Shown here: piece by piece, positions 35,604 through 56,536 of the stretch
How the letters are laid out: the number at the start of each line of letters is the position of its first letter
Position numbering within the stretch: position 1 is the stretch's first letter
Assembly: GCF_002872075.1 (NCBI RefSeq)
Contig: NZ_PGGU01000006.1
Span: 248,001 to 312,000 of the forward strand
Direction of reading: 5' to 3'
Length of the DNA stretch: 64,000 nt
DNA from: Microbacterium aurantiacum
GTDB lineage: Bacteria; Actinomycetota; Actinomycetes; Actinomycetales; Microbacteriaceae
Made by a program: the position numbers and the translations under genes
Notes under the pieces: generated by a model
What the model saw: the letters and a program-made list of their open reading frames with translations, nothing else
Database searches by the model: none
Told to the model about the DNA's origin: nothing

Positions 35604-36787
35604 GCGTCCATTCCACCGAGACCGGTTCGCTGGTCATCCACTCCGCCCGCGTCGTCGATCGCGGCGAGCTTGTCGAAGACGCCTGGGTGCGCTTCGAGGA
35701 CGGCCGGATCGTGGCGCGCGGCACCGGTTCGGATTGGTCGACAGCCGACGAGGTCGTCGACGCGACCGAGGTCGCCGGAAGCGGCGCGCTGCTCACACCC
35801 GGCTTCGTCGACATCCACGGACACGGCGGCGTCGGCGCCGCATTCGACGACGGCGTGGACGCCATCCGCACCGCTCGTGCCCTGCATCGCGCGCACGGCA
35901 CCACCCGCGCCGTGGTCTCCCTGGTCACCGCTTCACTCGACGACCTCGCCCGCAGCGTCAGCGAGATCGCCGACCTGATGACGACGGATGCCGACATCCT
36001 CGGCTCGCATCTGGAGGGTCCGTTCCTCGACCCCGGACACCAGGGCGCGCACGAGCCCACGCTGCTGCGCGCACCGGCACCGGCAGACGTCGCACGCCTG
36101 CTCGAGGCCGGTCGCGGCACCGTGCGGCAGGTGACCATCGCCCCCGAACTGCCCGGCGGGCTGGACGCGATCCGGCAGATCGTCGCGGCCGGCGCGGCGG
36201 CTGCCGTCGGTCACACCGACGCGGATGCCGAGATGGCTCAGGCGGCCTTCGACGCCGGCGCCTCGATCCTCACCCACGCGTTCAACGCTATGAACGGCAT
36301 TCATCACCGCGCCCCCGGCCCCGTGCTCGCAGCGGCGGCCGACCACCGCGTGGTGCTCGAGGCGATCGCCGACAACGTGCACCTCGCCCCCCACGTCATC
36401 AAACTGGTCTTCGACGCGGCGCCGGATCGGGTCGCCCTCGTCACCGACGCGATGGCGGCGGCGGGCGGCGCCGACGGGCACTACGACCTCGGCGCCGTGA
36501 GCGTCACGGTCACCGACGGCATCGCCCGCACAGACGACACCGGTTCGATCGCAGGCTCCACCCTCACGCAGGACGTCGCGCTGCGACGCGCGGTGCAGGC
36601 GGGTGCCGGGCTGATCCCGGCGATCCGGGCGCTCACCGAGACCCCGGCGAGGGCGATCGGGCTCGACGATGAGATCGGCTCGCTGCGGAACGGCTTCGTG
36701 GCCGATGCCGTGCTGCTGGATGAGCAGCTGAACGTCGCACGGGTCTGGGCGGGCGGGCGCCTCTCGCGCGGGAAGGGCAAGGCTTGA
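35600..36787 (+). CDS. nagA: N-acetylglucosamine-6-phosphate deacetylase
   Basis: A 395-residue amidohydrolase that converts GlcNAc-6-P to GlcN-6-P plus acetate. Landmarks: LLTPGFVDIHGHGG (metal site), GSHLEGPFLDPGHQGAHEP with the metal-ligand Glu, AVGHTDADAEMA, ILTHAFNAMNGIHHR and LVTDAMAAAGGADG with the catalytic Asp. It forms a two-gene operon with the GH20 enzyme. The matching deaminase nagB lies 5 kb away on the other strand. Confidence 0.94.
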   Translation: MSVHSTETGSLVIHSARVVDRGELVEDAWVRFEDGRIVARGTGSDWSTADEVVDATEVAGSGALLTPGFVDIHGHGGVGAAFDDGVDAIRTARALHRAHGTTRAVVSLVTASLDDLARSVSEIADLMTTDADILGSHLEGPFLDPGHQGAHEPTLLRAPAPADVARLLEAGRGTVRQVTIAPELPGGLDAIRQIVAAGAAAAVGHTDADAEMAQAAFDAGASILTHAFNAMNGIHHRAPGPVLAAAADHRVVLEAIADNVHLAPHVIKLVFDAAPDRVALVTDAMAAAGGADGHYDLGAVSVTVTDGIARTDDTGSIAGSTLTQDVALRRAVQAGAGLIPAIRALTETPARAIGLDDEIGSLRNGFVADAVLLDEQLNVARVWAGGRLSRGKGKA

Positions 36788-37153: not shown

Positions 37154-39304
37154 ATGATTGTGCCCTACGACAACACCTCCCCCGGCGGCGAAGCCACCGC
37201 CGACGCCGACCTGGTCCTGCGCACCCGCTCAGGAGACACGGAGGCCTTCGGCGAACTCTGGCGACGACACTATTCGGCCGGGATGTCGGTGGCACGCTCG
37301 TTCACGTCGTCCATCGACGCCGACGACCTGGTGCAGGAGGCGTACACGCGCATCTATCAGGCGATCATCAAAGGCGCGGGACCCAACGGCTCCTTCCGGG
37401 CGTACCTCTTCACCAGCATCCGCAACACCGCCGCGGCCTGGGGCCGTTCCCGGCGCGAGACCGCGATCGACGAGCTCGACTCGGTCGCCGACCCCGACAG
37501 CAGCGAGCAGGCGGCGGGCGAAGCGCTCGATCGCAGTCTGACCGCCCATGCCTTCCGCAGCCTGCCTTCACGCTGGCAGGAGGTGCTCTGGTACACCGAG
37601 ATCGAGCAGATGAAGCCGCAGGAAGTGGCGCCGCTCCTCGGCATGAAGTCGGGTGCGGTGTCGCAGCTCGCCTTCCGCGCTCGCGAAGGCCTGCGCGAGG
37701 CATGGATCCAGGCGCACCTGCGCAGCGCCGACCCCGGCTCCGACTGCCAATGGACCATCGAGCACCTGGGCGCGTACTCGCGCGGCAACCTGGGCACCCG
37801 TGATCACAAACGTCTCGAGCTGCACCTCGACGAGTGCGCCCGATGCATCATCGTCGCCGCCGAGGCGAAGGATGTCTCCACGCGCCTCGCTCTGGTGCTC
37901 CTTCCGCTCGTGCTCGGGGTCGCCGGCTCCACCGGCTATCTCGCCACGCTGCAGGGCGGTGTACCGGTCGTCGCACTGGCGGCGATGCCGTCCAGCGTCT
38001 TCGGCGGCGCTGTCGTCGTCGGATCCGGCACTGCATCGGCCGGCACGACGGGCGGTTCGGTCGGCAGCGGTTCAGCCGCTGGCGGTACGACCGCCGGCGG
38101 AGGTGGAAGCGCCGGAGGCGTGTTCAGCGGAGTGGGCGCTCTGATCGGAGCCGGCTCGGCCGCTCTCGTCGTCGCCGGCGTCGTCGCCGCAGCGACCACC
38201 ATCCCCGGAATCGTAGGTGCTGTGCCGGCATCGTCACAACCCAATGCGGGCGACAGCGACCCGTCGTCGATATCCGCGGAAGTCAGTCCAGATTCGACCA
38301 TGGCGCTCGACGAACCCATGATCATCGAGCTGCCGGCCCCGGTCGAGCCGACCACGGAGCCGACCCCGAAACCGAAACCGAAACCGACCGAGCCCGCGGA
38401 CTCGAAGCCCGACGAAGCCGCCTCAGTGGTTTCGCCGCCGACACAGGACCCGAAACCGGAGCCCAGTATCGCTCCTGAACCATCCCCGACTCCCACTCCG
38501 ACTCCCACTCCCACACCGACTCCCACACCGACTCCCACTCCCACACCGACTCCCACTCCCACTCCCACACCGACTCCCACACCGACTCCCACTCCCACAC
38601 CGACTCCCACTCCCACTCCCACACCGACTCCCACACCGCCTGTTCAGATCCCAGGCCTCCCGGGCGGGACACCGACCGCCGTTTCGACGGTTGTCAGTTG
38701 CGAGGAATCCGACTCCCACATCTTCTGGGTCACTCGCTATCGTGTGGAGGTCCAGGGCGCGCCGGATGCCCAAGTGCAGCCGTTCCTGAATGGCTCGACT
38801 GGAGGCACGTCCAGCGCGGTTCTCGACGAGAACGGTGTTGGCTTCGTGGAACTGCGTCCGTCCGCGCTTCAGATCATCTTCAATGCAGATGTCACCTTCC
38901 AGTACGTCTTCGAAGCTCAAGTGGGCCCGCTCACCGATCCGATTGCGCTAAGGGATCTCCCCGCCCAGTCCGGACAAGACTGCCGGCCCCGTTTCCCGCT
39001 CTCGGCTGAGACCGCATCCGACGAGCAGCAGACCGAGGAGGCTGTCGTTCCGGCAGCGCCAATCGACGGCGGCGAGACCGAACCCGCCCCCGTCGGCCCC
39101 GCAGCGCCTGTCGACGAGTCCCTCCCTGGCGAGACGCCGCCCGTCCAGGATGATGCCCCGGCCACTCCCGCCCCCGAGTCCCTCGATCCCTCACAGATCC
39201 CCGCGACACAGGAGCAAGGGCTTTTCGGCCCCGTCATAGACACTGTGGACATCGACGACGACGCCACTGCTCCCCCGGCCGAGGAACCCGCGCCCGCCGA
39301 ATAG
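37154..39304 (+). CDS. ECF-type sigma factor fused to zinc anti-sigma domain, membrane segments and Thr-Pro-repeat exported region
   Basis: A 716-residue modular protein. Residues about 25-95 are sigma region 2 ([35 protein letters not shown]); about 130-182 are region 4 ([21 protein letters not shown]). Next comes a zinc anti-sigma module: Cys198, then His224-x3-Cys228-x2-Cys231. Hydrophobic segments lie at about 243-266 and 327-355, separated by a Gly-rich stretch. A Pro/Thr/Lys region leads into a (Thr-Pro)n tract (about 445-495) and a C-terminal region of about 220 residues with two cysteines (about 515 and 613) and an acidic Pro-rich tail, probably outside the cell. The sigma and its anti-sigma are thus one polypeptide. 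ATG 37154 is used; GTG 37160 is possible. Its regulon is unknown. Confidence 0.85.
38489..38640 (+). repeat. Thr-Pro coding satellite with 54-bp higher-order period
   Basis: ACTCCC and ACACCG hexamers alternate. The arrangement repeats every 54 bp: the CACACCGACTCCCACACCG block recurs at 38512, 38566 and 38620. It encodes the uninterrupted Thr-Pro linker. Confidence 0.9.
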
Positions 39305-39695: not shown

Positions 39696-41060
39696 GTGAG
39701 CGTTCTCGCAGAGCTCCAGGCAGCGCTCGGCGCGCTCGTCGACATCGGCGAAGAGACCCTCCAGCTCGCCAGAGCAGACCGCTCAGGGCACGCCGCGGCC
39801 GGTCGTCCCCTGGCCGTCGTGCACGCCGAGACCGTCGAGCACGTGCAGCAGACGCTGCGCATCGCGACGGCCACCCGCACCCCGGTGGTGGTGCGCGGCG
39901 CAGGCACCGGCCTCGCCGGCGCCGCCAACGCAGGCGACGGCGAGATCGTGCTGTCGACTCTGCGCATGACCGCGGTCAAGGAGATCCGTCCGGACGACCT
40001 CCTCGCCGTGGTCGAACCCGGCATCCTCAACGCCGACCTCAACGACATTCTGCGCGAGCACGGTTTGTGGTGGGCACCCGATCCTGCGAGCAGGGCGATC
40101 TCGACGGTGGGCGGCAACATCGCCACGGGCGCCGGCGGACTGCTGTGCGCGAAGTACGGCGTGGTCCGGGATGCGGTCCTCGGCGTGGACCTCGTGCTCG
40201 CCGACGGCCGTCTTCTGCATCTCGGTCACCGCAGCGTGAAGGGCGTGACCGGACTCGATCTGACTTCACTCGTGATCGGATCCGAGGGCACCCTCGGCGT
40301 CGTCGTCGGCGCCACGCTGAAACTGCGGCGACTGATCGTCGGAACCACCTGCACGGTGATCGCTTCCTTCCCCGGGGTCGGGGCGGCAGCGGCGGCATCC
40401 GCAGCGGTGACCGCCGCCGGGATCCAGCCCGCGATCATGGAGCTGATGGATGCCCCGAGTCTCGCAGCCGTGCATCGTCATCTCCGCCTGGCGGCGCCTG
40501 CGGCGGGAACCGCACAGCTCACCATCCAGACGGACGGACCGGCCGCGATCACGGAAGCGGAGGCCGTCGCAACGATCCTCCGTGCTCTCGGGGGCGAGAT
40601 CTCCGTCTCAGAGGACCCCGAGGAGGGCGAGCGCCTGCTCGCGATCCGCCGAGCCATGCACCCGGCGATGGCGGCTCTCGGCACCACTCTCATCGAAGAC
40701 GTCTCGGTGCCGCGCAGTGCGATGCCCGCGATGTTCGACGAGATCGCCCGCATCGAGAAGGCGTACGGCCTGAGCATCCCCACCGTCGCGCACGCCGGCG
40801 ACGGCAACCTGCACCCGAACTTCATCTTCGAGGGCGCGGAGGTGCCCGAGCGCATCTGGGCGGCCGCCGACGAGCTGTTCCGCGCGGCGATCGCGCTCGG
40901 CGGCACGCTCACCGGCGAGCACGGCATCGGCGTGCTGAAGCAGCGCTGGCTCGCCGACGAGCTGGGCGAGGACCAGTGGGAACTGCAGAGACAGATCACC
41001 CGGGTCTTCGATCCCCTCGGCATCCTGAACCCCGGCAAGGTGTTCCCCGCCGATGCCTGA
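39696..41060 (+). CDS. FAD-linked oxidase (glycolate oxidase GlcD/D-lactate dehydrogenase-like)
   Basis: A 454-residue FAD-dependent 2-hydroxyacid dehydrogenase. The PCMH-type FAD domain has VVVRGAGTGLAGAAN, GGNIATGAGGLLCAKYG and VIGSEGTLGVV. The C-terminal domain has AHAGDGNLHPNF and TGEHGIGVLKQRWL. Substrates in the family include glycolate and D-lactate; D-lactate from muramic acid would fit the amino-sugar neighbourhood but is speculative. GTG start at 39696. It overlaps the Nudix gene by 8 nt. Confidence 0.88.
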   Translation: MSVLAELQAALGALVDIGEETLQLARADRSGHAAAGRPLAVVHAETVEHVQQTLRIATATRTPVVVRGAGTGLAGAANAGDGEIVLSTLRMTAVKEIRPDDLLAVVEPGILNADLNDILREHGLWWAPDPASRAISTVGGNIATGAGGLLCAKYGVVRDAVLGVDLVLADGRLLHLGHRSVKGVTGLDLTSLVIGSEGTLGVVVGATLKLRRLIVGTTCTVIASFPGVGAAAAASAAVTAAGIQPAIMELMDAPSLAAVHRHLRLAAPAAGTAQLTIQTDGPAAITEAEAVATILRALGGEISVSEDPEEGERLLAIRRAMHPAMAALGTTLIEDVSVPRSAMPAMFDEIARIEKAYGLSIPTVAHAGDGNLHPNFIFEGAEVPERIWAAADELFRAAIALGGTLTGEHGIGVLKQRWLADELGEDQWELQRQITRVFDPLGILNPGKVFPADA

Positions 41061-41484: not shown

Positions 41485-42264
41485 TCAGATGCCCTGCCAG
41501 GCCGGCTTGTTCGCGTAGGTGTACCGGTAGTAGTCGGCGAGCTTGAGCCGGGATGCCGCCGCCTCGTCGACCACGACTGTCGCGTGCGGATGCAGCTGGA
41601 TGGCGGAACCGGGCAGGAACGCGGTGAGGGGCCCCTCGACCGCATCGGCGACGGTCTGCGCCTTGCCTTCGCCGAACGCGAGCAGGACCAGGTGCCGGGC
41701 GCGGAGGATCGTGCCGAGTCCCTGCGTGATGCAGTGAAGCGGCACGTCGTCGATGGAGTCGAAGAAGCGGGCGTTGTCCTCGCGGGTCTGCACGGTCAGC
41801 GTCTTCACGCGGGTCTGCGACGCGAAGGAGGAACCGGGCTCGTTGAACCCGATGTGACCGTCGGTGCCGATGCCGAGGATCTGCAGATCGACGCCGCCCG
41901 CCGCCTCGATCGCGGCCTCGTAGTCGGCGCCGGCGCGTTCGATGGTGGCGACCGCCCCGTTGGGGACATGGATGCGCTGCGGGTCGAGGCCCAGCGGCTC
42001 GACGACCTCTCGCGTGATCACCGAACGGTAGCTCTCCGGATGGGCGGGATCGAGGCCGACGTACTCGTCGAGCGCGAATCCGCGCACCCGTGACACGTCG
42101 ACGCCGGCGAGTCGCGTGCGCAGCGCCTGGTACACGGCGAGCGGCGTCGAACCGGTCGCGAGCCCGAGCACCGCGTCGGGGCGCGCCTCGATGAGCTCGG
42201 CGATCTCCTGCGCGACCAGAGCGCCCGCGGCGTCCTTGTTCTCGACGATGACGACTTCAGCCAT
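41485..42264 (-). CDS. nagB: Glucosamine-6-phosphate deaminase
   Basis: A 259-residue isomerase/deaminase converting GlcN-6-P to fructose 6-phosphate and ammonia. Motifs: LGLATGSTPLAVYQAL (phosphate loop), FALDEYVGLDPAHPESYRS (catalytic Asp) and LGIGTDGHIGFNEPGSSF (catalytic His). It ends the minus-strand amino-sugar operon and overlaps the ROK kinase gene by 8 nt. With nagA at 35.6 kb it completes entry into glycolysis. Confidence 0.95.
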   Translation of the reverse strand: MAEVVIVENKDAAGALVAQEIAELIEARPDAVLGLATGSTPLAVYQALRTRLAGVDVSRVRGFALDEYVGLDPAHPESYRSVITREVVEPLGLDPQRIHVPNGAVATIERAGADYEAAIEAAGGVDLQILGIGTDGHIGFNEPGSSFASQTRVKTLTVQTREDNARFFDSIDDVPLHCITQGLGTILRARHLVLLAFGEGKAQTVADAVEGPLTAFLPGSAIQLHPHATVVVDEAAASRLKLADYYRYTYANKPAWQGI

Positions 42265-43222
42265 GGGCCATGATCTCCTTCTCTGGTGCGGATGCTCCGA
42301 CGACCGCGGCGCCGAAGGCAGCAGCCGGCGAACCTGCGGCGAGCAGTTCGATTCTCGCGTCCAGGTGGAGCGAGCTCATGAACGGCGACTTCTCGGCCTC
42401 ATCCCGGAGGGTGGCTCGGATGCCGTCCTCGAGGCGCGCGCCGAGAGAGGTGATCCCGCCGCCGATGATGACCTTCTCCACGTCGGCCGACAGCACGAGG
42501 ACGCGTACCGCGGCCGCAGCGCCGTGGATGAGGTCGGCCTTGAGGGCCATCGCATCGGCGTCGCCCGATTCGGCGGCGTCGAAGATGTCGCGGACCGGTA
42601 GCGCACCGGGGCGTCCCCAGGCGCGGGCGAGAGCGCCGCCGCCGCAGAAGGTCTCGATGCACCCGCGCTGACCGCAGCCGCAGAGTCTGCCCCGCGGATC
42701 GACCGAGATGTGGCCGACCTCGCCGGCCGTGCCTGTGGCTCCCCGCCAGATCCGGCCCTCGACGACGATGCCGGCCGCGACGCCGGTGCCGAGGTTCAGG
42801 TAGGCCATCGACCCGGTGACGCCGCGCAGCACCGCCGCCCCCAGCGCCGCGGCCTTCACGTCGTTCTCGACCCGGAAGGGGATGCCCATCTCCGCCTGTG
42901 CGCGTGGCGCGAGATCGAGCGATTCGACGCCGAGGTTCACGGCATGCAGCACGCGGCCGGAACGGGCGTCGACGAGTCCGGGGATTCCGACGCCCACCGA
43001 GCGGACCTCGGCCATCGGATAGCCGATCTCGTCGGCGAGGGCCGTGACGGCGTCGACGATCCCTGCGAGAACGGCATCCTCACCCCAGCCGGTGGGGCGG
43101 CGAAGGCGTCCGAGGATGTCTCCCTCCGAAGAGACGGCGACGGCGTCGATCTTCGTACCGCCGACATCCAGGCCCACGCGAATGTGCCGACCGTCGAGGT
43201 CGGCGTCGTCTGCACCCGTCAT
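42257..43222 (-). CDS. ROK-family sugar kinase (N-acetylglucosamine/glucose kinase-like)
   Basis: A 321-residue ROK kinase. DVGGTKIDAVAV (phosphate-binding loop), AYLNLGTGVAAGIVV, the catalytic ENDVKAAALG region and the zinc motif GEVGHISVDPRGRLCGCGQRG with CIE are all present. There is no HTH, so it is an enzyme, not a repressor. In an operon with nagB and a ROK regulator, GlcNAc (NagK-like) is the most likely substrate; glucose or ManNAc cannot be excluded. AGGAG lies nine bases before the ATG. Confidence 0.9.
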   Translation of the reverse strand: MTGADDADLDGRHIRVGLDVGGTKIDAVAVSSEGDILGRLRRPTGWGEDAVLAGIVDAVTALADEIGYPMAEVRSVGVGIPGLVDARSGRVLHAVNLGVESLDLAPRAQAEMGIPFRVENDVKAAALGAAVLRGVTGSMAYLNLGTGVAAGIVVEGRIWRGATGTAGEVGHISVDPRGRLCGCGQRGCIETFCGGGALARAWGRPGALPVRDIFDAAESGDADAMALKADLIHGAAAAVRVLVLSADVEKVIIGGGITSLGARLEDGIRATLRDEAEKSPFMSSLHLDARIELLAAGSPAAAFGAAVVGASAPEKEIMAHG

Positions 43223-43271
43223 CGGATGGCGCTCCTGCGTGTGGTCGAGGTGGTCTGGCCTGCGCAGCGGA

Positions 43272-44459
43272 TCACGAGACTCCCAGCTGGCCGGACAGCA
43301 CCATCACCGCGGCACCGCGGAGCACGATGTCGTCCTGGGTGGTGAGCCGGATGGCGACGTCTTCGAAGACCCCTTCCAGCGTCCGCGCGTGCAGGGTCTC
43401 GATGGCGGCGTCGATGAGGATCCCGTCGAGCATCTCGGCGGGACCGGACAGCACGACCTCGGACAGGTCGAGGGCGGCGACGATGGGGGCGATGGCGATC
43501 GCCATCCGCGTGCCCGCATCCCGGAGGATGTCGTCGCGACCCTCGGGATTCTCGGCGATGGCCGCGCGGAGGCGGGTGATGCTCAGCCACGCCTCGAGGC
43601 ATCCGTCCTTGCCGCACGCGCACCGCGGTCCGCCGTCGGTTCCGACGACGACGTGACCGATCTCACCCGCCGCGTAACGGCTGCCCACGAGCGGCTGACT
43701 GCCGGTGATCAGGCCGGCGCCGACGCCCTTGCCGATCTTGATGAGCATGAAGTCCGTCTTGGCGTCGCCGAAGGTGTACTCGGCGAGCACGGCGGCGTTG
43801 GCGTCGTTGCGGGCCAGCGCGGGGAGCCCGAGATCCGCGCCCAGCTTCGCCTCGAGCGGGAAGTTCGCCCAGCCGAGGTTCGGAGAGCTCAGTACGACCC
43901 CGTCCGGGCGGACCACGCCGGGCGTGCCGATGCCGACGCCGAGCAACGGCCGGGTGGAGAGCTCGACGAGGCCTCTGGCGAGCGCGAGCGTGGCCGCGTA
44001 CGCCGCCTCGCCGTCCGGCAACTCGGGGCGGGATACTTCCTGGCGTTCGAGCACTTCGCCGTCGAGGCTCAGTACGGCGCCGGAGAAGGCGTTCGGACCG
44101 GAGAGATCGAGCCCGATGATCTGGTGCCCGGCGCGGTCGATGTCGATGAGGATCGGGGGCTTCCCCGGGCCGGCCACGGCTCGCACGCCCATCTCGATGA
44201 CGATGCCGTCCGCGACGAACTCGGCGACGAGATCGGAGATGGTGACCCTCGTCAGTCCGGTCTCGCGCGAGAGGTCGGCCCGGCTCATGGCGCCGGCGTG
44301 GAAGAGCGTCTGCAGGACGAGCGCGCGGTTGTGTCCTCTGGCGTGCTCGGGCAGCACCTTGGAGCGGGAGCGCAGGTGGCGGCCGGGGCCGAAGGCGTGC
44401 GTGTTCGCACCGGCGTGGGCAGACGGCGATGCGGAACGCGACTCATCCAATGCGGACAT
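43272..44459 (-). CDS. ROK-family transcriptional repressor (NagC-like)
   Basis: A 395-residue NagC/Mlc-type regulator. A disordered N-terminus (about 1-40) precedes a winged HTH (NRALVLQTLFHAGAMSRADL, TGLTRVTISDLVAEF). The ROK sugar-binding domain has GLDLSGPNAFSG, a LGVGIGTPGVV segment and the zinc motif AAGEIGHVVVG followed by CACGKDGCLEAW. It likely senses GlcNAc or GlcNAc-6-P and represses this operon; the imperfect palindrome covering its own start (44459-44483) is a candidate operator. It sits 28 bp after the deacylase-GH20 fusion and 49 bp before the kinase. Confidence 0.92.
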   Translation of the reverse strand: MSALDESRSASPSAHAGANTHAFGPGRHLRSRSKVLPEHARGHNRALVLQTLFHAGAMSRADLSRETGLTRVTISDLVAEFVADGIVIEMGVRAVAGPGKPPILIDIDRAGHQIIGLDLSGPNAFSGAVLSLDGEVLERQEVSRPELPDGEAAYAATLALARGLVELSTRPLLGVGIGTPGVVRPDGVVLSSPNLGWANFPLEAKLGADLGLPALARNDANAAVLAEYTFGDAKTDFMLIKIGKGVGAGLITGSQPLVGSRYAAGEIGHVVVGTDGGPRCACGKDGCLEAWLSITRLRAAIAENPEGRDDILRDAGTRMAIAIAPIVAALDLSEVVLSGPAEMLDGILIDAAIETLHARTLEGVFEDVAIRLTTQDDIVLRGAAVMVLSGQLGVS

Positions 44460-44483
44460 GTTTGTTAGTAGACCTTACGAACA
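44459..44483. promoter_or_regulatory. Imperfect palindrome, candidate ROK operator
   Basis: Arms TGTTTGTTAG and CTTACGAACA match at eight of ten positions around a 5-bp centre. It overlaps the start codon of the NagC-like gene, suiting autoregulation. Confidence 0.5.
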
Positions 44484-44487
44484 TGAT

Positions 44488-47400
44488 TTACGCAAGCCCG
44501 GCCCCGCGGCTTGCGGGGAGGGTTACCGAAACGTTATGCGTCTCGGGTGGGTGCCCATCATATGGCTTCGCGCGCTCCAGGAGCACGCTGACGAGGCCCG
44601 CCACGATCTCCTCGCGCGCCGCGATCGTGAGCGGCTTGCCGGGTATTCCTGGGCGCCGCTGATCCGGCGTCGGACCGTCGAGCGGGCGGTAGGCGACACC
44701 CGCGACGGCGAGCCGGCGCAGATGCACCTGCAGCCGTCGTGCGAAGTCGTCGAACGCCCCGGGCTCGCCGCCGTCCCACAGCCGCTCGGCCGTCGCCGCG
44801 AGGCGCGGGAACATCGCGAAGTCGACCCTTTCGCGGGTCGGCAGATGCTCGGTCCAGACGTTCGCCTGGCCGCCGAGCGCGCCCTCCTCCACACGCAGCG
44901 AGTATGCGCGTTCGATCGTCAGCGGCGGCCCGACGCGAATCGGCTCTTCGGCGGAGTCGGATTGCGGGTAGTCGAGATACACCTGGAGGTCAGGGCAGGC
45001 GATCACCGGGATGCCTCGGCGCAGCGCCTCCCGCATGGCCACAGGGCCCCGCCAAGCGAGGATCCGCACGCCATCGGGAACATCGCCCTCCAGCACCTCG
45101 TCCCAGGCGAGGGCGGTGCGGCCGCGAGCGCGCACGTGCGCGGCGAAGTGCGCGGTGAACCACGGCTGGATCTCGTGCGGCGACGAGAGGCTGAGCTGCC
45201 GCATCCGCTCCGCCGCGGCCGGGCTCTGCTGCCACTCGGTCACCGGCACCTCGTCGCCTCCGATCCCGATCCACTCCGAGTCGAACAGGTCGCACAGCGC
45301 GTCGATGGCCGCCCGGCCGAACGCCAGCGAGGCCTCGGTCAGCGCGAGCGTCCGCGGGTTGACGCCGAACCGCTCCCACGGGGTCGTGGCGGGCTCGGCC
45401 GCGTCGAGATTGCCCAGCTCCGGATAGGCGGCGAGAGCGGCCTGCACATGCCCAGGCAACTCCACCTCGGGTACCAGCGTGACGAAGCGCTCGGCGGCGT
45501 AGGCGACGAGCTCGCGCAGCTCGGCATCCGCGTAATGGCCCTCGTGCACACCCTGCTCGACGGTCGCCCGCTCGCCGTGCCCCCGTTGCGTCGCATCGCG
45601 GCGAGCACCGATCTCCGTCAGGCGCGGGAACCCGGGAACCTCGAAACGCCATCCCTGGTCGTCGCTGAGATGCAGGTGGAGAACGTTCAGGTGGTGGTCG
45701 GCCAGCAGGTCGACGATGCGGCGGATGTCGGCTGCCGGGCGGAAGTGGCGCGCGACGTCGAGCATGACGCCGCGCCAGCCGTACGCCGGCGCCCCCTCCC
45801 ACACTCCGGCGGGGATACGCGCCTCGGTGTCCTCCGGTGGGCGGAGCTGGCGGAAGACGGTGGCGCCGCGGAAGATCCCGGCGGCCGTCGCACCGCGGAT
45901 CTCGACGCCGTCGGCCGCGACCGTCACCCGGAACGCCTCTGCACCGGAGCGAGCTCGGGCGAAAGCCGCATCGGCGAGTCCCGCGTCGAGCACGAGGGTG
46001 ATCGCGGGGGCACTGTCAGCGGGGGCACTGTCAGCGGGCGTGGGGTCCGTGCCGCCACCGAGTATCGCGACCGTGCCCGCCAGTTCGGCGCCGGCCGGCT
46101 CGGCGCCGGCGACGATCGGCGTCCGCGGCGTCCAGACGAAGCCATCGGAATCGTGGATCACCGCGTCGATGCGGGGCAGTGTCGCCCGGTGCGCCGGTGG
46201 CGGCATCCGCAGGGCGCGCCCAGCCGTCGTTCCGGTGACCGCCCCGTCCTCGACGACCGTGACTCCGCCGACCAGTACCTCGATGATGCCCACCGGCGGT
46301 GAGTGCGGGGCGTCGAAGGTCGCCCCTGCCGCGACCGTCTCGGGGTCGAAGAGCACGAGGTCGGCTGTCGCTCCGACGCGGATCACGCCACGCGGCGCGT
46401 CGCCTCGATGCAGCCCGAGACGCTCGGCCGGGGTGCCGGAGAGGTGCCGCACCGCCTCTTCGAGCGTGAGCACGCCCAGGTCTCGCACGTAATGCCCGAG
46501 GTAGCGAGGGAAGGTGCCGCGTGCGCGCGGATGCGGCCGTGCGCCGATGAGGATGCCGTCGCTGCCGCCGGTGTGGCGCGGATGGCGCATGATCGCCCTG
46601 ACGTTGCCCTCGTCGCCGACGTGCATGAGGATGCTGGTCGCCCCGGCATCCCGAACGATCGTGTCGAGCACGACGTCCACCGCACGCCGACCGCTGTCCT
46701 CGGCGATCTCGGCGATCGTACGCCCGACGAGCGTTCCGAGGGCGGGGTCTCCGGTGCCGGCGATCTGGATGCTGTCCCAATCGGCCCGTTCGCCGTGGAA
46801 GCCGTCGCATCCGATGCCCTCCAGCTCGACGCGCACGCGCTCGCGGGCCTCGGCGTCGAGGCCGGCGATCACGCCCAGGAGGTCGCCGCTCTCCGCGAGG
46901 CGGCTGGGGAGCAGTGACGCGAGCGTCGTCGAACCCGGCAGGTACGGATAGGTGTCGAGCGTCACGTCGACCCCCTCTGCGATCGCCTCATCGATGAGCG
47001 CGAGCAGGTCGTCGGCGCGACCCCGGTTCGGCGCGAAGTTCATCGTCGCGTGGGTCAGGTGGATCGGGCAGCCCGTGCGCCGGCCGATGTCGAGCACCTC
47101 CCGGTACGCCGAGAGAGCGGCACCGCCGTAGCTGCGGGTGTGCGGCGCCCAGTACCCGCCGCGTTCGGCGACCACCCGGCAGAGCGCCTCCAACTCGGCG
47201 ATGTCCGCGTGCATCCCCGGCGTGTAGGTCAGACCGCTGGACATTCCGAACGCCCCCGCATCGAGCGCCGCACCGAGGAGGCCGCGCATCGCCTCGATCT
47301 CCTCGGCCGTCGCCGGCCGGTTCTCGTGCCCGACGACGATCATGCGCAGGTTGCCCTGCGGGACGAGGACTGCTGCGTTCCCCACGGTCGCGACATCGAT

Positions 47401-47847
47401 CGCATCGAGGAGATCGTCCATCGAGCGCCAGGGCACCGCGGCCGGCGTTCCGTTCCAGCCGGCGATCTGTGCAGGGATGACGGATGCTGCGGCATCGTCG
47501 AGCGGCGCGTAGCCGAGCCCGTCCTGCCCGAGCACCTCGGTCGTGACGCCCTGCAGGATCTTCGCGTCATGAGCTGCGCCGGTCAGCACAGCGAGGTCGC
47601 TGTGGGCGTGCATGTCGATGAATCCGGGCGCGAGGACGACGCCTGCGGCGTCGACCTCGACGGCGCCGTCCGGCAGCTCGAGCGTGTCGGCGGCTGGAGG
47701 GTCCGTGAGGGGCAGCACCGCGACGATCCGCGCCCCCTCGACGGCGACGTCGGCACGGTACCGGGGCGCGCCGGTGCCATCGACGACCGTCGCCCCTCGG
47801 TACACGCGCACGCGCCCCGCGGCGGCCTGCTCAGCGCTCAGAAGCAT
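44488..47847 (-). CDS. Fusion of N-acyl-D-amino-acid deacylase (amidohydrolase) and GH20 beta-N-acetylhexosaminidase
   Basis: A single open frame of 1119 residues. Residues about 12-545 form a D-aminoacylase-type amidohydrolase: GFIDMHAHSDLAVL (His80, His82), the GVTTEVLGQDG loop, PIHLTHATMN, and a C-terminal composite-barrel return ending TTAGRALR. Residues about 550-1119 form a complete GH20: an N-terminal GH20b-like domain, HLHLSDDQGWRFEV, and the catalytic Asp865-Glu866 in GIGGDEVPVTEW. No stop separates them; an internal ATG at 46206 (residue 548) could start a separate GH20. The ATG at 47847 overlaps the upstream PLP-enzyme gene by 10 nt. No signal peptide, so it probably acts on imported material. 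Stand-alone deacylases are about 480-530 aa, so both halves are full length. Confidence 0.88.
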   Translation of the reverse strand: MLLSAEQAAAGRVRVYRGATVVDGTGAPRYRADVAVEGARIVAVLPLTDPPAADTLELPDGAVEVDAAGVVLAPGFIDMHAHSDLAVLTGAAHDAKILQGVTTEVLGQDGLGYAPLDDAAASVIPAQIAGWNGTPAAVPWRSMDDLLDAIDVATVGNAAVLVPQGNLRMIVVGHENRPATAEEIEAMRGLLGAALDAGAFGMSSGLTYTPGMHADIAELEALCRVVAERGGYWAPHTRSYGGAALSAYREVLDIGRRTGCPIHLTHATMNFAPNRGRADDLLALIDEAIAEGVDVTLDTYPYLPGSTTLASLLPSRLAESGDLLGVIAGLDAEARERVRVELEGIGCDGFHGERADWDSIQIAGTGDPALGTLVGRTIAEIAEDSGRRAVDVVLDTIVRDAGATSILMHVGDEGNVRAIMRHPRHTGGSDGILIGARPHPRARGTFPRYLGHYVRDLGVLTLEEAVRHLSGTPAERLGLHRGDAPRGVIRVGATADLVLFDPETVAAGATFDAPHSPPVGIIEVLVGGVTVVEDGAVTGTTAGRALRMPPPAHRATLPRIDAVIHDSDGFVWTPRTPIVAGAEPAGAELAGTVAILGGGTDPTPADSAPADSAPAITLVLDAGLADAAFARARSGAEAFRVTVAADGVEIRGATAAGIFRGATVFRQLRPPEDTEARIPAGVWEGAPAYGWRGVMLDVARHFRPAADIRRIVDLLADHHLNVLHLHLSDDQGWRFEVPGFPRLTEIGARRDATQRGHGERATVEQGVHEGHYADAELRELVAYAAERFVTLVPEVELPGHVQAALAAYPELGNLDAAEPATTPWERFGVNPRTLALTEASLAFGRAAIDALCDLFDSEWIGIGGDEVPVTEWQQSPAAAERMRQLSLSSPHEIQPWFTAHFAAHVRARGRTALAWDEVLEGDVPDGVRILAWRGPVAMREALRRGIPVIACPDLQVYLDYPQSDSAEEPIRVGPPLTIERAYSLRVEEGALGGQANVWTEHLPTRERVDFAMFPRLAATAERLWDGGEPGAFDDFARRLQVHLRRLAVAGVAYRPLDGPTPDQRRPGIPGKPLTIAAREEIVAGLVSVLLERAKPYDGHPPETHNVSVTLPASRGAGLA

Positions 47848-49055
47848 GTCGCCACCGCCCCGATCACGCGTGGATCGGCGGCATCCGGATCGTCGATCAC
47901 CGCGACGACCCGCCATTTGTCGAACGCCGTGCACGGATGCGAGAGTCCGAGCCGCACCACGTCGCCGACGTTCACGGTCGAACCCGGGGCGAGGGCGAGG
48001 AAGGCGTGCTGATCGTTGAGAGCCGTGATCCGGCCCGGCACAGTCTGCGGCGCGGGCAGGTCGATGTCGAAGGGCACGTCGCGCCGGCCGGCATCGAGCA
48101 GCGCGAGCCCCTCCTCCGGCTGCGAGACCACCCTCGCCCAGGCATGCATCGCGGAGCGCAGGGGCGGCGTGCCGAGCAACGGGCCGAACGGCGACATCCG
48201 TGAGTAGAAGCCGTCATCATGGATCTGGAAGGCCCCCGAGCGCAGCACCAGGTCGGCGTCGTCGCCGTGCGCGCCGAGCACCGCGGCCACGCGATCGGGG
48301 AAGGAGCTCCCCCCGGCGGTCAGGACCGGACGCATGCCGTCGGGATAGTCGAGTCGCTGATGCAGGTCGACGAGTGTGTGCAGAAATGCGTCGACGGCGG
48401 CCACGGAATCCGCGGAGCGGTCGGGTCCGAACGGACCCTCGTACCCCGCGACGCCGGCGAGGCGGAGCCCCGGGGTCGCTGAGATGGCCGCGGCGATCCG
48501 TTCTCCTTCGGCGATGGTGCGCGCTCCGGTACGGCCGCCCGTTCCACCGAGCTCGACGAGCACGTCGAGGGGACGGCCGGCGCCGACGAGCGCATCGGCC
48601 AGAATCCCGACCGTGGCCGGCGAGTCGGCCCAGCACAGGATGCGCAGCTGCGGATCCGCGTCCAGCAAAGCCCCGAGCCGCCTCGCGGCCGCACGATCGA
48701 CGACGGCGTTGGCGATGAGCACGGTCGGCACGCCCGCCTCGACGGCCACCTCGGCCTGCCACGGCGTGGCCACCGAGATCCCCCAGGCGCCGGCGTCGAG
48801 CAGTCGTTGCCAGAGGGCAGGCGCCATCGTGGTCTTGCCGTGCGGGGCGAGGAGGATCCCCTGGCTCGCGGCCCAGGAGAACACCGTCGCCTCGTTGTGC
48901 GCCATCGCGGATTCCTGCACCGTGAGCACGGGGGACACCAGATCGGAGAGGCGCAGTCCGGCCCCTGCGATATCGGAGAGGCGCATCCCGGCGACGTGGG
49001 CCGGAAAGCCCTTCGTCCGCACGCCGAGAACCGGATCCGGAATTTGTAGAGGCAT
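47838..49055 (-). CDS. D-serine dehydratase-like/D-threonine aldolase-like PLP enzyme (DSD1 family)
   Basis: A 405-residue fold-type III PLP enzyme. The alanine-racemase-like barrel has the PLP lysine in APHGKTTMAPALWQ. The C-terminal domain has HPCTAFDKW, the His-x-Cys zinc ligands of eukaryotic-type D-serine dehydratase and related D-amino-acid deaminases/aldolases. It should act on a D-hydroxy-amino acid such as D-serine or D-threonine. It heads the amino-sugar operon, overlaps the deacylase-GH20 gene, and is divergent from RidA, which detoxifies enamines made by PLP dehydratases. TAGCGT six bases before the ATG suggests a leaderless mRNA. Confidence 0.87.
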   Translation of the reverse strand: MPLQIPDPVLGVRTKGFPAHVAGMRLSDIAGAGLRLSDLVSPVLTVQESAMAHNEATVFSWAASQGILLAPHGKTTMAPALWQRLLDAGAWGISVATPWQAEVAVEAGVPTVLIANAVVDRAAARRLGALLDADPQLRILCWADSPATVGILADALVGAGRPLDVLVELGGTGGRTGARTIAEGERIAAAISATPGLRLAGVAGYEGPFGPDRSADSVAAVDAFLHTLVDLHQRLDYPDGMRPVLTAGGSSFPDRVAAVLGAHGDDADLVLRSGAFQIHDDGFYSRMSPFGPLLGTPPLRSAMHAWARVVSQPEEGLALLDAGRRDVPFDIDLPAPQTVPGRITALNDQHAFLALAPGSTVNVGDVVRLGLSHPCTAFDKWRVVAVIDDPDAADPRVIGAVATCF

Positions 49056-49061
49056 CTAACA

Positions 49062-49074
49062 ACGCTACTAGGCT
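49062..49074. promoter_or_regulatory. Back-to-back leaderless -10 elements, DSD1-like gene and ridA
   Basis: Minus-strand TAGCGT (49062-49067) stands six bases before the ATG at 49055. Plus-strand TAGGCT (49069-49074) stands six bases before the ATG at 49081. They are one base apart in a 25-bp intergenic region, so polymerase binding should be mutually exclusive. Confidence 0.55.
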
Positions 49075-49080
49075 GACGAC

Positions 49081-49485
49081 ATGACTGCGAAGACCCGCGT
49101 TTCCACTGAGGCCGCACCGGCTCCCGCCCACACCTTCTCGCAGGGCGTCCGCAAGGGGCCGATCGTCCAGATCTCGGGCCAGGGCCCCGTCGATCCTGTG
49201 ACGAACGAGTACCTCCACCCCGGCGATGTCGCCGCGCAGACCACGCGCACGCTGGAGAACGTGAAAGCGATCGTCGAGGCATCCGGTGCCACCTTCGACG
49301 ATGTCGTGATGCTCCGCGTCTACCTCATCAAACGCGAGGACTTCGCGATCATGAACGAGGCATACGGCGCCTTCGTCGCCGCGCACACCCCGAGCGGGGT
49401 ACTCCCCTCCCGGACCACGGTGATGACCGGACTGCCCCGCGAAGAGATGCTCGTCGAGATCGACGGCCTCGCCGTCGTCGCCTGA
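49081..49485 (+). CDS. RidA-family enamine/imine deaminase
   Basis: A 134-residue RidA/YjgF protein. VQISGQGPVDPVTNEYLHPG, the NVKAIVEASGATFDDVVMLRVYL segment, LPSRTTV with the substrate-binding Arg, and VEIDGLAVV at the end are typical. It hydrolyses reactive 2-aminoacrylate-type enamines to keto acids. Its divergent neighbour is a D-serine-dehydratase-like enzyme that would generate such enamines, giving a coherent pair. Trimeric and cytoplasmic in known members. Confidence 0.92.
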   Translation: MTAKTRVSTEAAPAPAHTFSQGVRKGPIVQISGQGPVDPVTNEYLHPGDVAAQTTRTLENVKAIVEASGATFDDVVMLRVYLIKREDFAIMNEAYGAFVAAHTPSGVLPSRTTVMTGLPREEMLVEIDGLAVVA

Positions 49486-49588
49486 GTACGCACGGCGCCG
49501 GAGCCCCAGCGACCTTTACCTCCCCGTTACCTGCCATCCCGTATCATAAGGAGACAGGACACGTTATGTGAACCGGGGGGTGATGTGC

Positions 49589-51076
49589 GTGACCGATCTG
49601 ATTTCCGCGCCTGATGCGAAGGCTGGGGCGCCCGGCGATACGCCCGCACCCACCGAGGTCCTCACCTCGATCGATGGCGCACCGCCCGCGGACGGCACTC
49701 AGTCGCTCGCCTGGGTACCCGTCGAACCGAAGCCGAAGAAGAAGCGCCTCGCGCTCTGGATCGGCATCGGACTCGGCGTCTTCGCCCTGGGCGCAGGTGC
49801 GGCGTCCGCGATCCTCATCGCGCCCGGCACGACCGTCGCCGGCATCCCCGTCGGGTGGCTGACACCCGGCGCGGCCGCCGACGCCGTCGACGCGCATCTC
49901 GCCGGCACGGAGATCACGCTCACCGGAGACGGTGAAGGAGCGGTGCTGACCGGCGCGGACCTCGGGGCGAGCATCGACGCCGCCGCTCTGGCCGACAAGG
50001 CCTTCGCAGAGCGCCCCCTGTGGAACCTCGGGGCGTGGATGGGCGACCCCATCGCCGCCGACATCACCCTCGACCCGGCCAAGGCCGAGAGCGCCCTGCG
50101 GGCCGCCGTGCCGTCGAGCTTCGATGACCCGGTCGACGCCGGCGTCTCGTTCGACGCGACGAGCGGAACCTACGTGATCACGCCCGGCGAAGCCGGTACG
50201 GCGATCGACATCGAGGCGCTGACCGCCGCGATCGTCGGCACCGTCGCCGATGGCCGCAAGAACCTGGACTTCCCCGGCGGCCCCGCCGAGGCTCTCCCCG
50301 CCGTCTCCGACGACGACGCCACCGCGACCGCCGGCACCCTGAACTCGATGCTCACGACGATCGGCTTCTACGTCGGCACCGAGCGCACCGTGCCCGTCGC
50401 ACCGGCCGTCGCCGCCACCTGGCTCAAGGTCATCGATGTCGACGGAAAGCTGGTGATCGAGGCCGACCGGGCCGCGATCCAGGCCGCCGTCGACGGTCTC
50501 GCCCCGCTGATCCATCGCCCACCTGTGAACGCGCAGGCGGTCGTCAACTCGTCCGGCTCCGTGCTGGAAGAGCTCACCACAGGCGTCACCGGTCGCGATC
50601 TCGGAGACGTCTCCGGAGCGGCCGACGACTTCGCGGAGTTGCTGGAGGGCGGTGAGGCGGTCTTCACCGTCCCGGTCACCGAGACCCCGTTCGTCACGGC
50701 CACCCTGCATCGCCGGATCGACGTCAACCTCAGCAACCAGACCGTCACGGTGCTGGAGAACGGTGCCGCGGTCGACTCCTGGGAGGTCTCCTCCGGGGCG
50801 GGCGAGTTCGCCACCCACACCGGTTCGTTCGCGGTGGGATGGAAGACGACGAGCCAGAACATGGGCAACCGCGACCTCACGCAGGCGCCGTTCTACTTCC
50901 AGCCCGACATCAAGTGGGTCATGTACTTCAACGGCGACGAGGCCTTCCACGGCGTCTACTGGCACTCCAACTGGGGCACTCCGATGAGCCACGGTTGCGT
51001 CGGAATGCCCGAGTGGCGCGCCGCCTGGCTCTTCGACTGGGCCCCTGAGGGCACCGAGGTCAACGTCCACTACTGA
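49589..51076 (+). CDS. L,D-transpeptidase (YkuD) with N-terminal membrane anchor
   Basis: A 495-residue cell-wall enzyme. A cytoplasmic N-terminus (1-50, ending KPKKKRL) is followed by one membrane helix (about 54-77), so the rest is outside. Residues about 80-370 are repeat-like beta domains resembling peptidoglycan-binding/VanW-associated modules. The C-terminal YkuD domain starts near 375 (RRIDVNLSNQTVTVLENG) and has the catalytic motif HSNWGTPMSHGCVGMPEW with Cys470. It makes 3-3 crosslinks or attaches proteins to peptidoglycan. GTG 49589 fits GGGGGG eight bases upstream; GTG 49568 or 49580 and ATG 49583 are in-frame alternatives. Confidence 0.9.
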   Translation: MTDLISAPDAKAGAPGDTPAPTEVLTSIDGAPPADGTQSLAWVPVEPKPKKKRLALWIGIGLGVFALGAGAASAILIAPGTTVAGIPVGWLTPGAAADAVDAHLAGTEITLTGDGEGAVLTGADLGASIDAAALADKAFAERPLWNLGAWMGDPIAADITLDPAKAESALRAAVPSSFDDPVDAGVSFDATSGTYVITPGEAGTAIDIEALTAAIVGTVADGRKNLDFPGGPAEALPAVSDDDATATAGTLNSMLTTIGFYVGTERTVPVAPAVAATWLKVIDVDGKLVIEADRAAIQAAVDGLAPLIHRPPVNAQAVVNSSGSVLEELTTGVTGRDLGDVSGAADDFAELLEGGEAVFTVPVTETPFVTATLHRRIDVNLSNQTVTVLENGAAVDSWEVSSGAGEFATHTGSFAVGWKTTSQNMGNRDLTQAPFYFQPDIKWVMYFNGDEAFHGVYWHSNWGTPMSHGCVGMPEWRAAWLFDWAPEGTEVNVHY

Positions 51077-54118: not shown

Positions 54119-54214
54119 CACTCCTGGATCCGACCAGGACGAAACGTCCGCGAAGGCGTCACCCGACCCACCGAAGTGTCCGGCCTCTGGGCCACCGAGA
54201 AAGGAGTGCCGACG

Positions 54215-55519: not shown

Positions 55520-55525
55520 TCCATC

Positions 55526-55553
55526 GCGGGGGCGGCTCGGTGGCCGCCCCCGC
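55526..55553 (+). other. Intra-operon stem-loop after the binding-protein gene
   Basis: An 11-bp perfect GC stem (55526-55536, GCGGGGGCGGC, with 55543-55553), 6-nt loop, no T run. Such hairpins commonly stabilise the binding-protein message relative to the permeases. Confidence 0.7.
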
Positions 55554-55573
55554 ACCCTCCTGGAGATGAACCC

Positions 55574-56536
55574 ATGTCACTCGCCACCCGCGGCGGCCGC
55601 ACGAAGCTGCCACCCGAACAGCCGTCCATCCCGCAGCGCAGCGGCGGGACCGGGGCTTACTGGATGTACCTGCTTCCTGGCTTCGTGCTGCTGCTCGTCG
55701 TCGTCATCGTGCCGCTCATCTGGAACGTGTACCTCACCTTCACGAAGTGGAAGGGAGTGCGCGCGCCGGAGTTCATCGGACTCGAGAACTGGCAGAAGAT
55801 CCTCACCGACAGCGACTTCTGGACGTCCTTCACCAACTCGGTGTGGATGATCCTGGCCATGGTCGTCGTGCCGACGATCGTCGGCCTCATCGTCGCCGCC
55901 CTCCTGTTCGACGTCGTCGGACGCAAGTTCGGCGGCAAGGTCGGCAGCTTCCTGCGGGCCACGTACTACCTCCCGCAGATCCTCCCCATCGCCGTGGCCG
56001 GCATCGTGATCGGATGGATCGTGCGTCCGGGCGGAGACGGCGCCCTGAATCAGATCCTCGGCGCTTTCGGCCTCCCCGCATACGACTGGCTGGGGCAGAT
56101 GCCCTCCGCCCTCATCGTGCTCATGCTGGTCATGGTCTGGGTGCAGCTCGGCTACCCGGTCGTCGTGTTCATGGCGGCCCTGCAGCGCGTCGATCCGGAG
56201 CTCTACGAGGCGGCAGAGCTCGACGGCGCGAACTGGCTGCAGCGGTTCTCCGCCATCACGATGAGCATCATCCGACCGGAGATCTTCGTCGTGACCCTCA
56301 CCTGCACGATCGCGGCCCTCAAGCTGTTCGGTCCCGTCTACATCATCACGCGCGGAGGGCCTGCCGGCTCGACGCTGGTGCCGGCCTACTACGCATATCA
56401 GGAGTTCTTCACCAAGCGGAACGTCGGCTACGGCGCGACGATCGCCACCGTGCTCACCATCGTCGTGGTCATCGTGTCGATCGTGTTCATCCGTGTGCAG
56501 AACTCCCTCGAACGGAAAGAGAGGGCGGGACTGTGA
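55574..56536 (+). CDS. ABC sugar transporter permease (MalF-like)
   Basis: A 320-residue inner-membrane permease with six helices. The EAA loop is EAAELDGANWLQRFSAITMS (EAA-x3-G), which docks the ATPase. First of the permease pair; GGAG precedes the ATG. Overlaps the next permease start by a base. Confidence 0.93.
   Translation: MSLATRGGRTKLPPEQPSIPQRSGGTGAYWMYLLPGFVLLLVVVIVPLIWNVYLTFTKWKGVRAPEFIGLENWQKILTDSDFWTSFTNSVWMILAMVVVPTIVGLIVAALLFDVVGRKFGGKVGSFLRATYYLPQILPIAVAGIVIGWIVRPGGDGALNQILGAFGLPAYDWLGQMPSALIVLMLVMVWVQLGYPVVVFMAALQRVDPELYEAAELDGANWLQRFSAITMSIIRPEIFVVTLTCTIAALKLFGPVYIITRGGPAGSTLVPAYYAYQEFFTKRNVGYGATIATVLTIVVVIVSIVFIRVQNSLERKERAGL

Follow-up and report, generated by a model that had tools for sequence, protein, structure and literature searches.

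An operon with a fused amidohydrolase and family 20 hexosaminidase in Microbacterium aurantiacum, with a probable role in the breakdown of C1-oxidised chitin ends

A 64,000-nucleotide stretch of the Microbacterium aurantiacum genome (contig NZ_PGGU01000006.1, positions 248,001 to 312,000; hereafter the window) carries a compact operon in which amino-sugar genes are joined to genes of D-amino-acid type. The source genome is 3.83 Mb in size, and the nearest named relative among the matches listed is Microbacterium sp. SZ1 (81%, deacylase half of the fusion described below). Five genes lie on the minus strand and a RidA gene diverges from them across 25 bp (Table 1); the intergenic distances from NagB to RidA are -8, 49, 28, -10 and 25 bp. 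Open reading frames and Pfam/NCBIfam families bear out this arrangement of overlaps and short gaps, which a preliminary description made from the sequence alone had given. The operon probably breaks down chitobionic acid (GlcNAc-beta-1,4-GlcNAc1A, where GlcNAc is N-acetylglucosamine and GlcNAc1A its C1-oxidised form), the smallest of the C1-oxidised chitin fragments that lytic polysaccharide monooxygenases (LPMOs) and chitinases leave behind, after cytoplasmic uptake; this reading is drawn from gene families and genomic context.

A comparable set of enzymes is known from Pseudoalteromonas, in which the glycoside hydrolase family 20 (GH20) enzyme OngA, the D-aminoacylase-like OngB, the pyridoxal phosphate (PLP)-dependent deaminase OngC and the kinase KdgK serve the use of GlcNAc1A, as found by knock-out and assay (PMC9537276). 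OngA cuts GlcNAc-GlcNAc1A, OngB deacetylates and OngC yields 2-keto-3-deoxygluconate (KDG). The RidA protein OngD is required by knock-out, although its role is not known (PMC9537276).

Table 1. Genes and other features of the operon, with two amino-sugar genes nearby in the window
Feature	Position	Strand	Basis
Second GH20, distantly related, adjoining NagA	34086-35603	+	Pfam GH20 and GH20b; tree position remote from the fused GH20
NagA, GlcNAc-6-phosphate deacetylase; outside the operon, completes the GlcNAc half	35600-36787	+	TIGR00221, 232.1 bits (cut-off 225.65)
NagB, glucosamine-6-phosphate deaminase	41485-42264	-	NF001684, 404.5 bits (cut-off 326); TIGR00502, 238 (cut-off 236.9)
ROK sugar kinase, proposed GlcNAc kinase	42257-43222	-	Pfam ROK; no NCBIfam model over its own cut-off
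ROK-family transcriptional regulator	43272-44459	-	Pfam ROK (aa 115 onwards); Mlc and NagC models hit below their cut-offs, starting at aa 43-44
Fusion of D-aminoacylase-fold amidohydrolase (aa 1-551) and GH20 beta-N-acetylhexosaminidase (about aa 552-1060)	44488-47847	-	Pfam, PDB relatives, structure model
Fusion, proposed roles: GlcNAc1A deacetylase and chitobionic-acid hexosaminidase	44488-47847	-	Inferred
DSD1-like D-amino-acid dehydratase (fold-III PLP enzyme); proposed to dehydrate D-glucosaminate in an OngC-like role	47838-49055	-	Pfam D-ser_dehydrat
Divergent gap of 25 bp with a conserved 17-bp block; candidate operator/promoter	49056-49080	.	Alignment
RidA-type enamine/imine deaminase, OngD-like role	49081-49485	+	Pfam Ribonuc_L-PSP

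The fusion is encoded in one open frame of 1119 codons from the ATG at 47847. If this ATG is the start, the N-terminus reads MLLS, as in 29 of the 46 called relatives. Pfam recognizes Amidohydro_3, GH20b and GH20 in the protein, and an AlphaFold2 model (34 rows) is confident across both halves, with a mean predicted local distance difference test score of 86.3, a predicted template modelling score of 0.87 and weak stretches at residues 600-603, 965-968, 1055-1071 and 1095-1119. In structure comparison, the part of the model that aligns with D-aminoacylase folds spans approximately residues 2-552, and the part that aligns with GH20 enzymes approximately residues 553-1057. The joining of the two enzymes, already noticed in the preliminary description, is therefore real, since both domains share a single frame and a confident model and all 46 fetched relatives are alike. 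No signal peptide was seen on the fusion by eye, and the fused GH20 is apparently cytosolic.

The amidohydrolase half forms a TIM barrel with a small beta domain as in the D-aminoacylase 1m7j, with Z values of 51.6-52.1 to 1m7j, 3gip and 9kb3 over 472-476 residues. This ranking cannot tell OngB from the D-aminoacylases, as the values are tied (52.1 to the GlcNAc1A complex of Pseudoalteromonas OngB, PpOngB). The active-site residues are His80, His82, Asp109 (in place of Cys), His236, His266, Asp430 and Arg441. Thus, the Cys/His/His subtype V zinc site with catalytic Asp typical of OngB is altered at the Cys position, where 17 of 18 aligned sequences, that of the window among them, carry Asp (the exception is locus L045), while His236, His266 and Asp430 are retained. 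In the carboxylate site, the window protein also keeps Tyr300, Ser306 and Arg441. OngB residues were mapped via the 1m7j alignment and the published numbering, Ser292 being placed by its spacing from a conserved Tyr; on this mapping the specificity residue Ser292 corresponds to Thr307, and Gln298 falls in an unaligned insertion. The structure and specificity residues of OngB have been described, and the Cys ligand and the carboxylate-binding Lys are among the residues said to be strictly conserved across OngB-, AfDam- and BbDam-like enzymes (PMC12017989). Curated models reach the deacylase clade only below cut-off, as 'amidohydrolase family protein'. The deacetylase would represent a clade separate from OngB, with Asp for the Cys zinc ligand, and has possibly evolved separately.

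The second half carries a GH20 catalytic domain (PF00728, 296.7 bits) with the Asp-Glu pair, in the motif GGDE at residues 863-866. Its nearest solved relative is 3rcn from Arthrobacter aurescens (37-39% identity). In a tree of 40 thinned rows, the fused GH20 groups with GH20s of Pseudonocardiaceae deacylase/lactonase clusters (support 98/95) and not with the adjacent GH20s of its own genus; the fusion is therefore no simple joining of the neighbour seen in unfused species. The second GH20 of the window overlaps the NagA gene, and both, about 5-6 kb from the operon, had been missed in the preliminary description. Ordinary chitobiase leaves chitobionic acid uncut (PMC10067821), so that a dedicated GH20 makes sense.

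The best solved relative of the DSD1-like enzyme is the D-serine deaminase 3gwq. It carries the PLP lysine in HGKT (Lys74) and the metal site in SHPC (His373 and Cys375), motifs that we take to be hallmarks of the DSD1 family. The HGK motif occurs in 75 and the HPCxxFDKW-type motif in 73 of 78 DSD1 sequences. In the tree of these 78 thinned rows, the window enzyme stands among DSD1s from clusters with KDG kinase and 2-keto-3-deoxy-6-phosphogluconate (KDPG) aldolase. A second, more distant DSD1 in genome G906 (locus L220, 8609-11820) lies beside an apparent D-aminopeptidase and dipeptide ATP-binding cassette (ABC) transporter genes, as judged by eye; it is placed on another branch, and the locus is likely a true D-amino-acid pathway.

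The 17-bp block in the DSD1/RidA gap is kept throughout the genus (alignment of 41 sequences including the window), and conservation around it extends into the DSD1 coding sequence. No second copy was found in the window at up to three mismatches, and a promoter/terminator scan gave no promoter within the 25-bp gap. A spacing of 25 bp between divergent starts leaves little room for a pair of ordinary promoters; transcription may be leaderless, or the promoters may overlap.

The deacylase half was found in 90 of 345 Microbacterium genomes searched, at E values no higher than 1e-110. Eleven of these show 57-63% identity and are unfused to judge from their loci; the other 79 reach at least 71%. 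The latter are assigned to the fused type by identity, the fusion being confirmed by locus in the 46 fetched. Each of these 46 loci encodes a single protein of 1063-1124 residues with both domains. The order RidA, divergent from DSD1 - fusion - ROK regulator - ROK kinase - NagB, is complete in 40 of them, and only DSD1 is absent from the remaining six. The same gene order thus recurs across relatives, which rules out a strain-specific oddity. ABC sugar-transporter genes within the operon were seen in a single one of the 46, the divergent L202. In a deacylase tree of 123 thinned rows (18 labelled as fused; branch support by Shimodaira-Hasegawa-like approximate likelihood ratio test only; gammaproteobacterial OngB and OngC were not among the searched sequences), the fused proteins form one clade together with the contig-cut L032. 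This clade is nested in one of 37 rows that includes the unfused deacylases of the KDPG-aldolase type from the same genus, and its rows belong to Microbacteriaceae wherever they could be placed.

Gene calls came from a codon-usage caller that missed some DSD1 and PfkB genes (L216 and several Streptomyces loci); the key counts, namely the order in fused loci and the neighbours in 80 loci given below, were therefore redone by tblastn. The neighbour counts for 11 unfused loci of the genus and for second DSD1 copies rest on the caller and BLAST. The locus sets overlap, with identical deacylases in L052/L147 and L057/L154, and L051 and L178 seem to represent a single contig. In genome G296, a shortened fusion-like gene (L034, 8558-11083) encodes 841 residues with a diverged deacylase part; DSD1, RidA, kinase and NagB were not seen in this stretch. 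The genome has an LPMO and, elsewhere, a separate DSD1-deacylase-aldolase cluster (L048).

Evidence on the fate of the dehydratase product comes from relatives in which the deacylase is not fused. A linkage to KdgK and KDPG aldolase was foreseen before these were inspected; Pfam then identified KDPG aldolase in 5/5 and PfkB kinase in 3/4 tested neighbours, the fourth PfkB candidate being an unrelated tetratricopeptide repeat/acetyltransferase protein. For the best 80 of at least 454 confirmed deacylase matches in Actinomycetota, the genes within 5 kb of the deacylase include DSD1 in 71 loci, RidA in 69, an IclR regulator in 60, PfkB in 58, KDPG aldolase in 16, a GntP permease in 14, GH20 in four (one a fusion) and lactonase in four. 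Beyond 5 kb, out to the locus ends, the corresponding counts are 0, 0, 2, 0, 1, 22, 2 and 0 respectively. GntP is frequently on the far side of RidA. It was confirmed by Pfam in 4/4 tested cases, and the one run against NCBIfam exceeded the gluconate-symporter cut-off (TIGR00791). A beta-propeller lactonase was confirmed by Pfam in 3/3 tested loci (L067, L080 and L084), together with GH20 and, by eye, ABC genes. The 11 unfused Microbacterium loci contain KDPG aldolase in nine cases, GH20 two genes from the deacylase in eight and a called PfkB in five. Within the genus, fused and unfused clusters complement one another: genes for the GlcNAc half (ROK kinase, NagB) are found in the former and genes for the KDG half in the latter, and between them both halves of GlcNAc-GlcNAc1A are covered. 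In locus L063 (11710-18490), a deacylase-DSD1 cluster is accompanied by a ROK regulator and ABC genes (by eye), and GH4 and a BadF kinase replace GH20 and NagB; this set reads as an alternative way of opening an amino-sugar glycoside.

The six genomes whose fused locus lacks DSD1 provide a natural complementation. All six hold a second DSD1 (49-54% identity) elsewhere, compared with 2 of the 40 genomes that keep the cluster copy (Fisher p=3e-6); these two extra copies are in G977 and G735. When any second DSD1 of at least 43% identity is counted, the latter figure is 5/40 (p=5e-5). Neighbourhood data cover the six genomes and G906. For five of the six, a KDPG aldolase is found no more than two genes away from the second copy, and for four a PfkB gene is within this distance too. 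A deacylase near it is lacking in L214, L216, L217 and L219, distant in L215 (37%) and present as a fragment at the edge in L218. In the DSD1 tree the six copies form a group that also takes in L048, from the same genus. Since every DSD1-less genome holds a second copy, mostly by a KDPG aldolase, the dehydratase step seems to be needed along with the fusion and tied to the KDG genes.

Chemically, GlcNAc1A is a beta-hydroxylated N-acetyl-D-amino acid, and for this reason a D-aminoacylase-type enzyme followed by one of D-serine-dehydratase type would yield KDG from it. The KDG kinase, KDPG aldolase and GntP linkage and the DSD1 complementation together indicate that the dehydratase product is most likely KDG and the substrate GlcNAc1A. 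In the proposed pathway, GlcNAc-GlcNAc1A would be taken up into the cytoplasm, where the GH20 half of the fusion would release GlcNAc from GlcNAc1A and the amidohydrolase half would take acetate off GlcNAc1A to give D-glucosaminate. The DSD1-like enzyme would dehydrate and deaminate this to KDG and ammonia, RidA perhaps helping imine hydrolysis. KDG kinase and KDPG aldolase, unlinked here and linked in relatives, would lead on to pyruvate and glyceraldehyde-3-phosphate. The ROK kinase, NagA and NagB would convert GlcNAc to fructose-6-phosphate, and the ROK regulator presumably controls the operon.

Genes for the unlinked steps are present in the genome. NagA and the second GH20, with the NagB and kinase of the operon, make up a full GlcNAc route. 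An unlinked ManD-KdgA-KdgK group lies elsewhere, with ManD over its NCBIfam cut-off, and a GH18 chitinase is encoded. Two further candidates within the window were considered. The flavin adenine dinucleotide (FAD) oxidase at 39696-41060 was ruled out as a GlcNAc oxidase, since its FAD-oxidase_C domain is that of the GlcD group and it has its own travelling neighbours; the ABC transporter at 54176-57423, which sits with a GH31 gene, is a less likely candidate for the uptake system.

Several observations weigh against chitobionic acid as the substrate. In the amidohydrolase half, the Cys ligand is replaced by Asp109, the carboxylate-binding Lys by Thr268 and Ser292 of OngB by Thr307, and this half is closer by sequence to the D-aminoacylase 1m7j (267 bits) than to PpOngB (198 bits). 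The window operon includes neither KDG genes nor a transporter. The KDG kinase and aldolase of the genome pass Pfam cut-offs but not those of NCBIfam, and KDPG aldolase genes occur in 6/6 genomes of the genus tested, two of them without the fusion, so that their mere presence says little. One of the six second DSD1 copies (L219) is without KDG genes, and in 21 of the 80 loci PfkB and KDPG aldolase are both missing within 5 kb. Some loci instead carry a BadF kinase, a beta-lactamase-like, an SIS or a GH4 gene. GntP permeases also include the D-serine carrier DsdX. On the side of chitin, GH18 was found in 3/8 fused genomes tested (G000, G667 and G755). An AA10 LPMO is absent from the source genome (0/1) and from 81 of the 90 deacylase-positive genomes of the genus, being present in 9/90; these strains would therefore live on chitin ends cut by others. 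The association of deacylase and LPMO is seen within the genus (deacylase in 9/13 LPMO genomes versus 81/332 others, p=0.001) and by genome in the class (58/74 versus 62/320) but is unclear by genus (9/20 versus 31/117, p=0.11), and shared ancestry may explain part of it.

The preliminary description had joined the same enzymes into the salvage of muropeptides, in which the deacylase frees D-amino acids from peptidoglycan, the PLP enzyme deaminates D-Ser or D-Thr and NagB takes the GlcNAc. Its joining of an amino-sugar half to a D-amino-acid-like half holds, with enzyme roles much as proposed; the peptidoglycan source is unsupported. It is true that D-aminoacylases are the nearest relatives of the deacylase by sequence, that the PLP enzyme resembles a D-serine deaminase and that OngC too acts on D-Ser and D-Thr (PMC9537276). 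BadF-type kinases occur in L038 and L063 and a beta-lactamase-like gene in L038, and an L,D-transpeptidase gene lies past RidA. However, the deacylase and dehydratase travel with KDG kinase, KDPG aldolase and a gluconate-type permease, which D-amino-acid breakdown would not need, and the DSD1 complementation would also be left unexplained. Pfam found no amidase, NagZ, MurQ or D-peptidase family in the six genes. The MurQ of the genome (over the TIGR00274 cut-off) lies about 78 kb off beside a kinase that is BadF-like by eye, at a locus from which the genes of the operon are absent, and the D-peptide-type DSD1 of L220 is on another branch. Peptidoglycan and D-amino-acid salvage was rejected on the KDG-gene linkage, the DSD1 complementation and the separate MurQ locus, and is quite improbable. 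The alternative left open in the preliminary description, another D-acyl glycoconjugate, fared better, as GlcNAc-GlcNAc1A qualifies as one.

Slightly less improbable, though still unlikely, is the same chemistry on an N-acetyl-2-amino-2-deoxyaldonate that does not come from chitin LPMOs, such as the N-acetylgalactosamine aldonate, or the GlcNAc aldonate formed by sugar dehydrogenases or oxidases on other glycans. The scarcity of LPMOs in the deacylase-positive genomes would fit such a source, and the matching models cannot separate KDG from 2-keto-3-deoxygalactonate kinases and aldolases. NagB and NagA, however, point to GlcNAc, the clusters of lactonase, GH20 and ABC genes fit a beta-linked oxidised disaccharide, neighbouring organisms with LPMOs could supply oxidised chitin, and the LPMO co-occurrence within the genus and by genome in the class also speaks for chitin, subject to the shared ancestry noted above. 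Least probable of all is that the amidohydrolase acts elsewhere in the pathway, deacetylating the intact disaccharide or a lactone, with GH20 acting second or on the de-N-acetylated aglycone. Loss of the carboxylate-binding Lys and the Cys ligand, and the presence of both domains in one chain, would agree with this. On the other hand, the retained Tyr300, Ser306 and Arg441 favour a carboxylate substrate, and the rarity of GH20 near the unfused relatives (4/80) makes monomeric GlcNAc1A their simpler substrate. The breakdown of chitobionic acid thus remains the preferred reading.

Some further genes of the window are recorded here. A 716-aa protein (37154-39304) combines sigma-70 regions 2 and 4 with a zinc-finger domain and a long Pro-Thr repeat. 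The L,D-transpeptidase (YkuD; 49583-51076), just past RidA, has a peptidoglycan-binding domain, and its between-species identity (54-62%) is lower than that of surrounding genes. An ABC sugar transporter followed by GH31 (54176-59657) is kept together with the neighbourhood in the relative L032.

Actinobacteria are major chitin degraders. No account of how they use oxidised chitin ends was met in the literature found here, and nothing was found on Sco4986 or on Microbacterium with oxidized chitooligosaccharides. Streptomyces coelicolor has seven putative LPMOs, four of which group with chitin-oxidising ones (PMC10067821). A wider proposal, which we consider about evenly balanced, is that Actinomycetota have a widespread pathway for LPMO-oxidised chitin ends built on a fourth D-aminoacylase-fold deacetylase clade, with an Asp zinc ligand and GlcNAc1A activity gained apart from gammaproteobacterial OngB; in Microbacterium this deacetylase would be fused to a cytosolic GH20, one enzyme turning chitobionic acid into GlcNAc, acetate and D-glucosaminate. 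If true, the ong-like pathway of marine bacteria extends to actinobacteria with a new enzyme fusion, and the deacylase clade gains a defined role in many actinomycetes.

Complete ong clusters have been reported in Gammaproteobacteria and one betaproteobacterium, and the accessible portion of that report names neither Actinobacteria nor Streptomyces (PMC9537276). A similar cluster was noticed earlier in Paraglaciecola, without assignment of this pathway in the available text (PMC7014002), and in Aeromonas the route was looked for and, as far as the accessible text goes, could not be confirmed (PMC11653859). GlcNAc1A equilibrates with its own 1,5-lactone (PMC12017989). With the ong cluster of Pseudoalteromonas prydzensis (PMC9537276), the window operon shares, by sequence, a GH20, a D-aminoacylase-fold deacetylase, a fold-III PLP deaminase and RidA; these four components occur together here and in 40 of the 46 fused loci of the genus. 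The differences are considerable. The host belongs to Actinomycetota, and the GH20, fused to the deacetylase, is apparently cytosolic, whereas OngA is predicted to be periplasmic. A ROK regulator stands where ong has MurR/RpiR, the unit includes NagB and a ROK kinase and is without a TonB receptor or sodium:solute symporter (SSS), and KdgK and KdgA are unlinked, whereas ong clusters include a KDG kinase and, in some cases, a KDPG aldolase.

Similar relations hold for the single enzymes. PpOngB (PDB 9kb1, 9kb3, 9kb4; PMC12017989) shares the fold at a Z value tied with the D-aminoacylases and is 34% identical in the structure alignment, whereas the window protein has Asp for the Cys ligand and Thr for both Lys254 and Ser292. 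The D-aminoacylase AfDam (1m7j) and the N-acyl-D-Glu deacylase BbDam (3gip) are the best PDB sequence matches and share the fold, but the window protein departs from them at the Cys ligand and the carboxylate-binding Lys common to those groups (PMC12017989). The GH20 of 3rcn has the same GH20b and catalytic domains and the DE pair, and differs in that the window GH20 is fused behind an amidohydrolase. Thus, the window system works like ong but is no copy of it, and its deacetylase lies outside the OngB definition.

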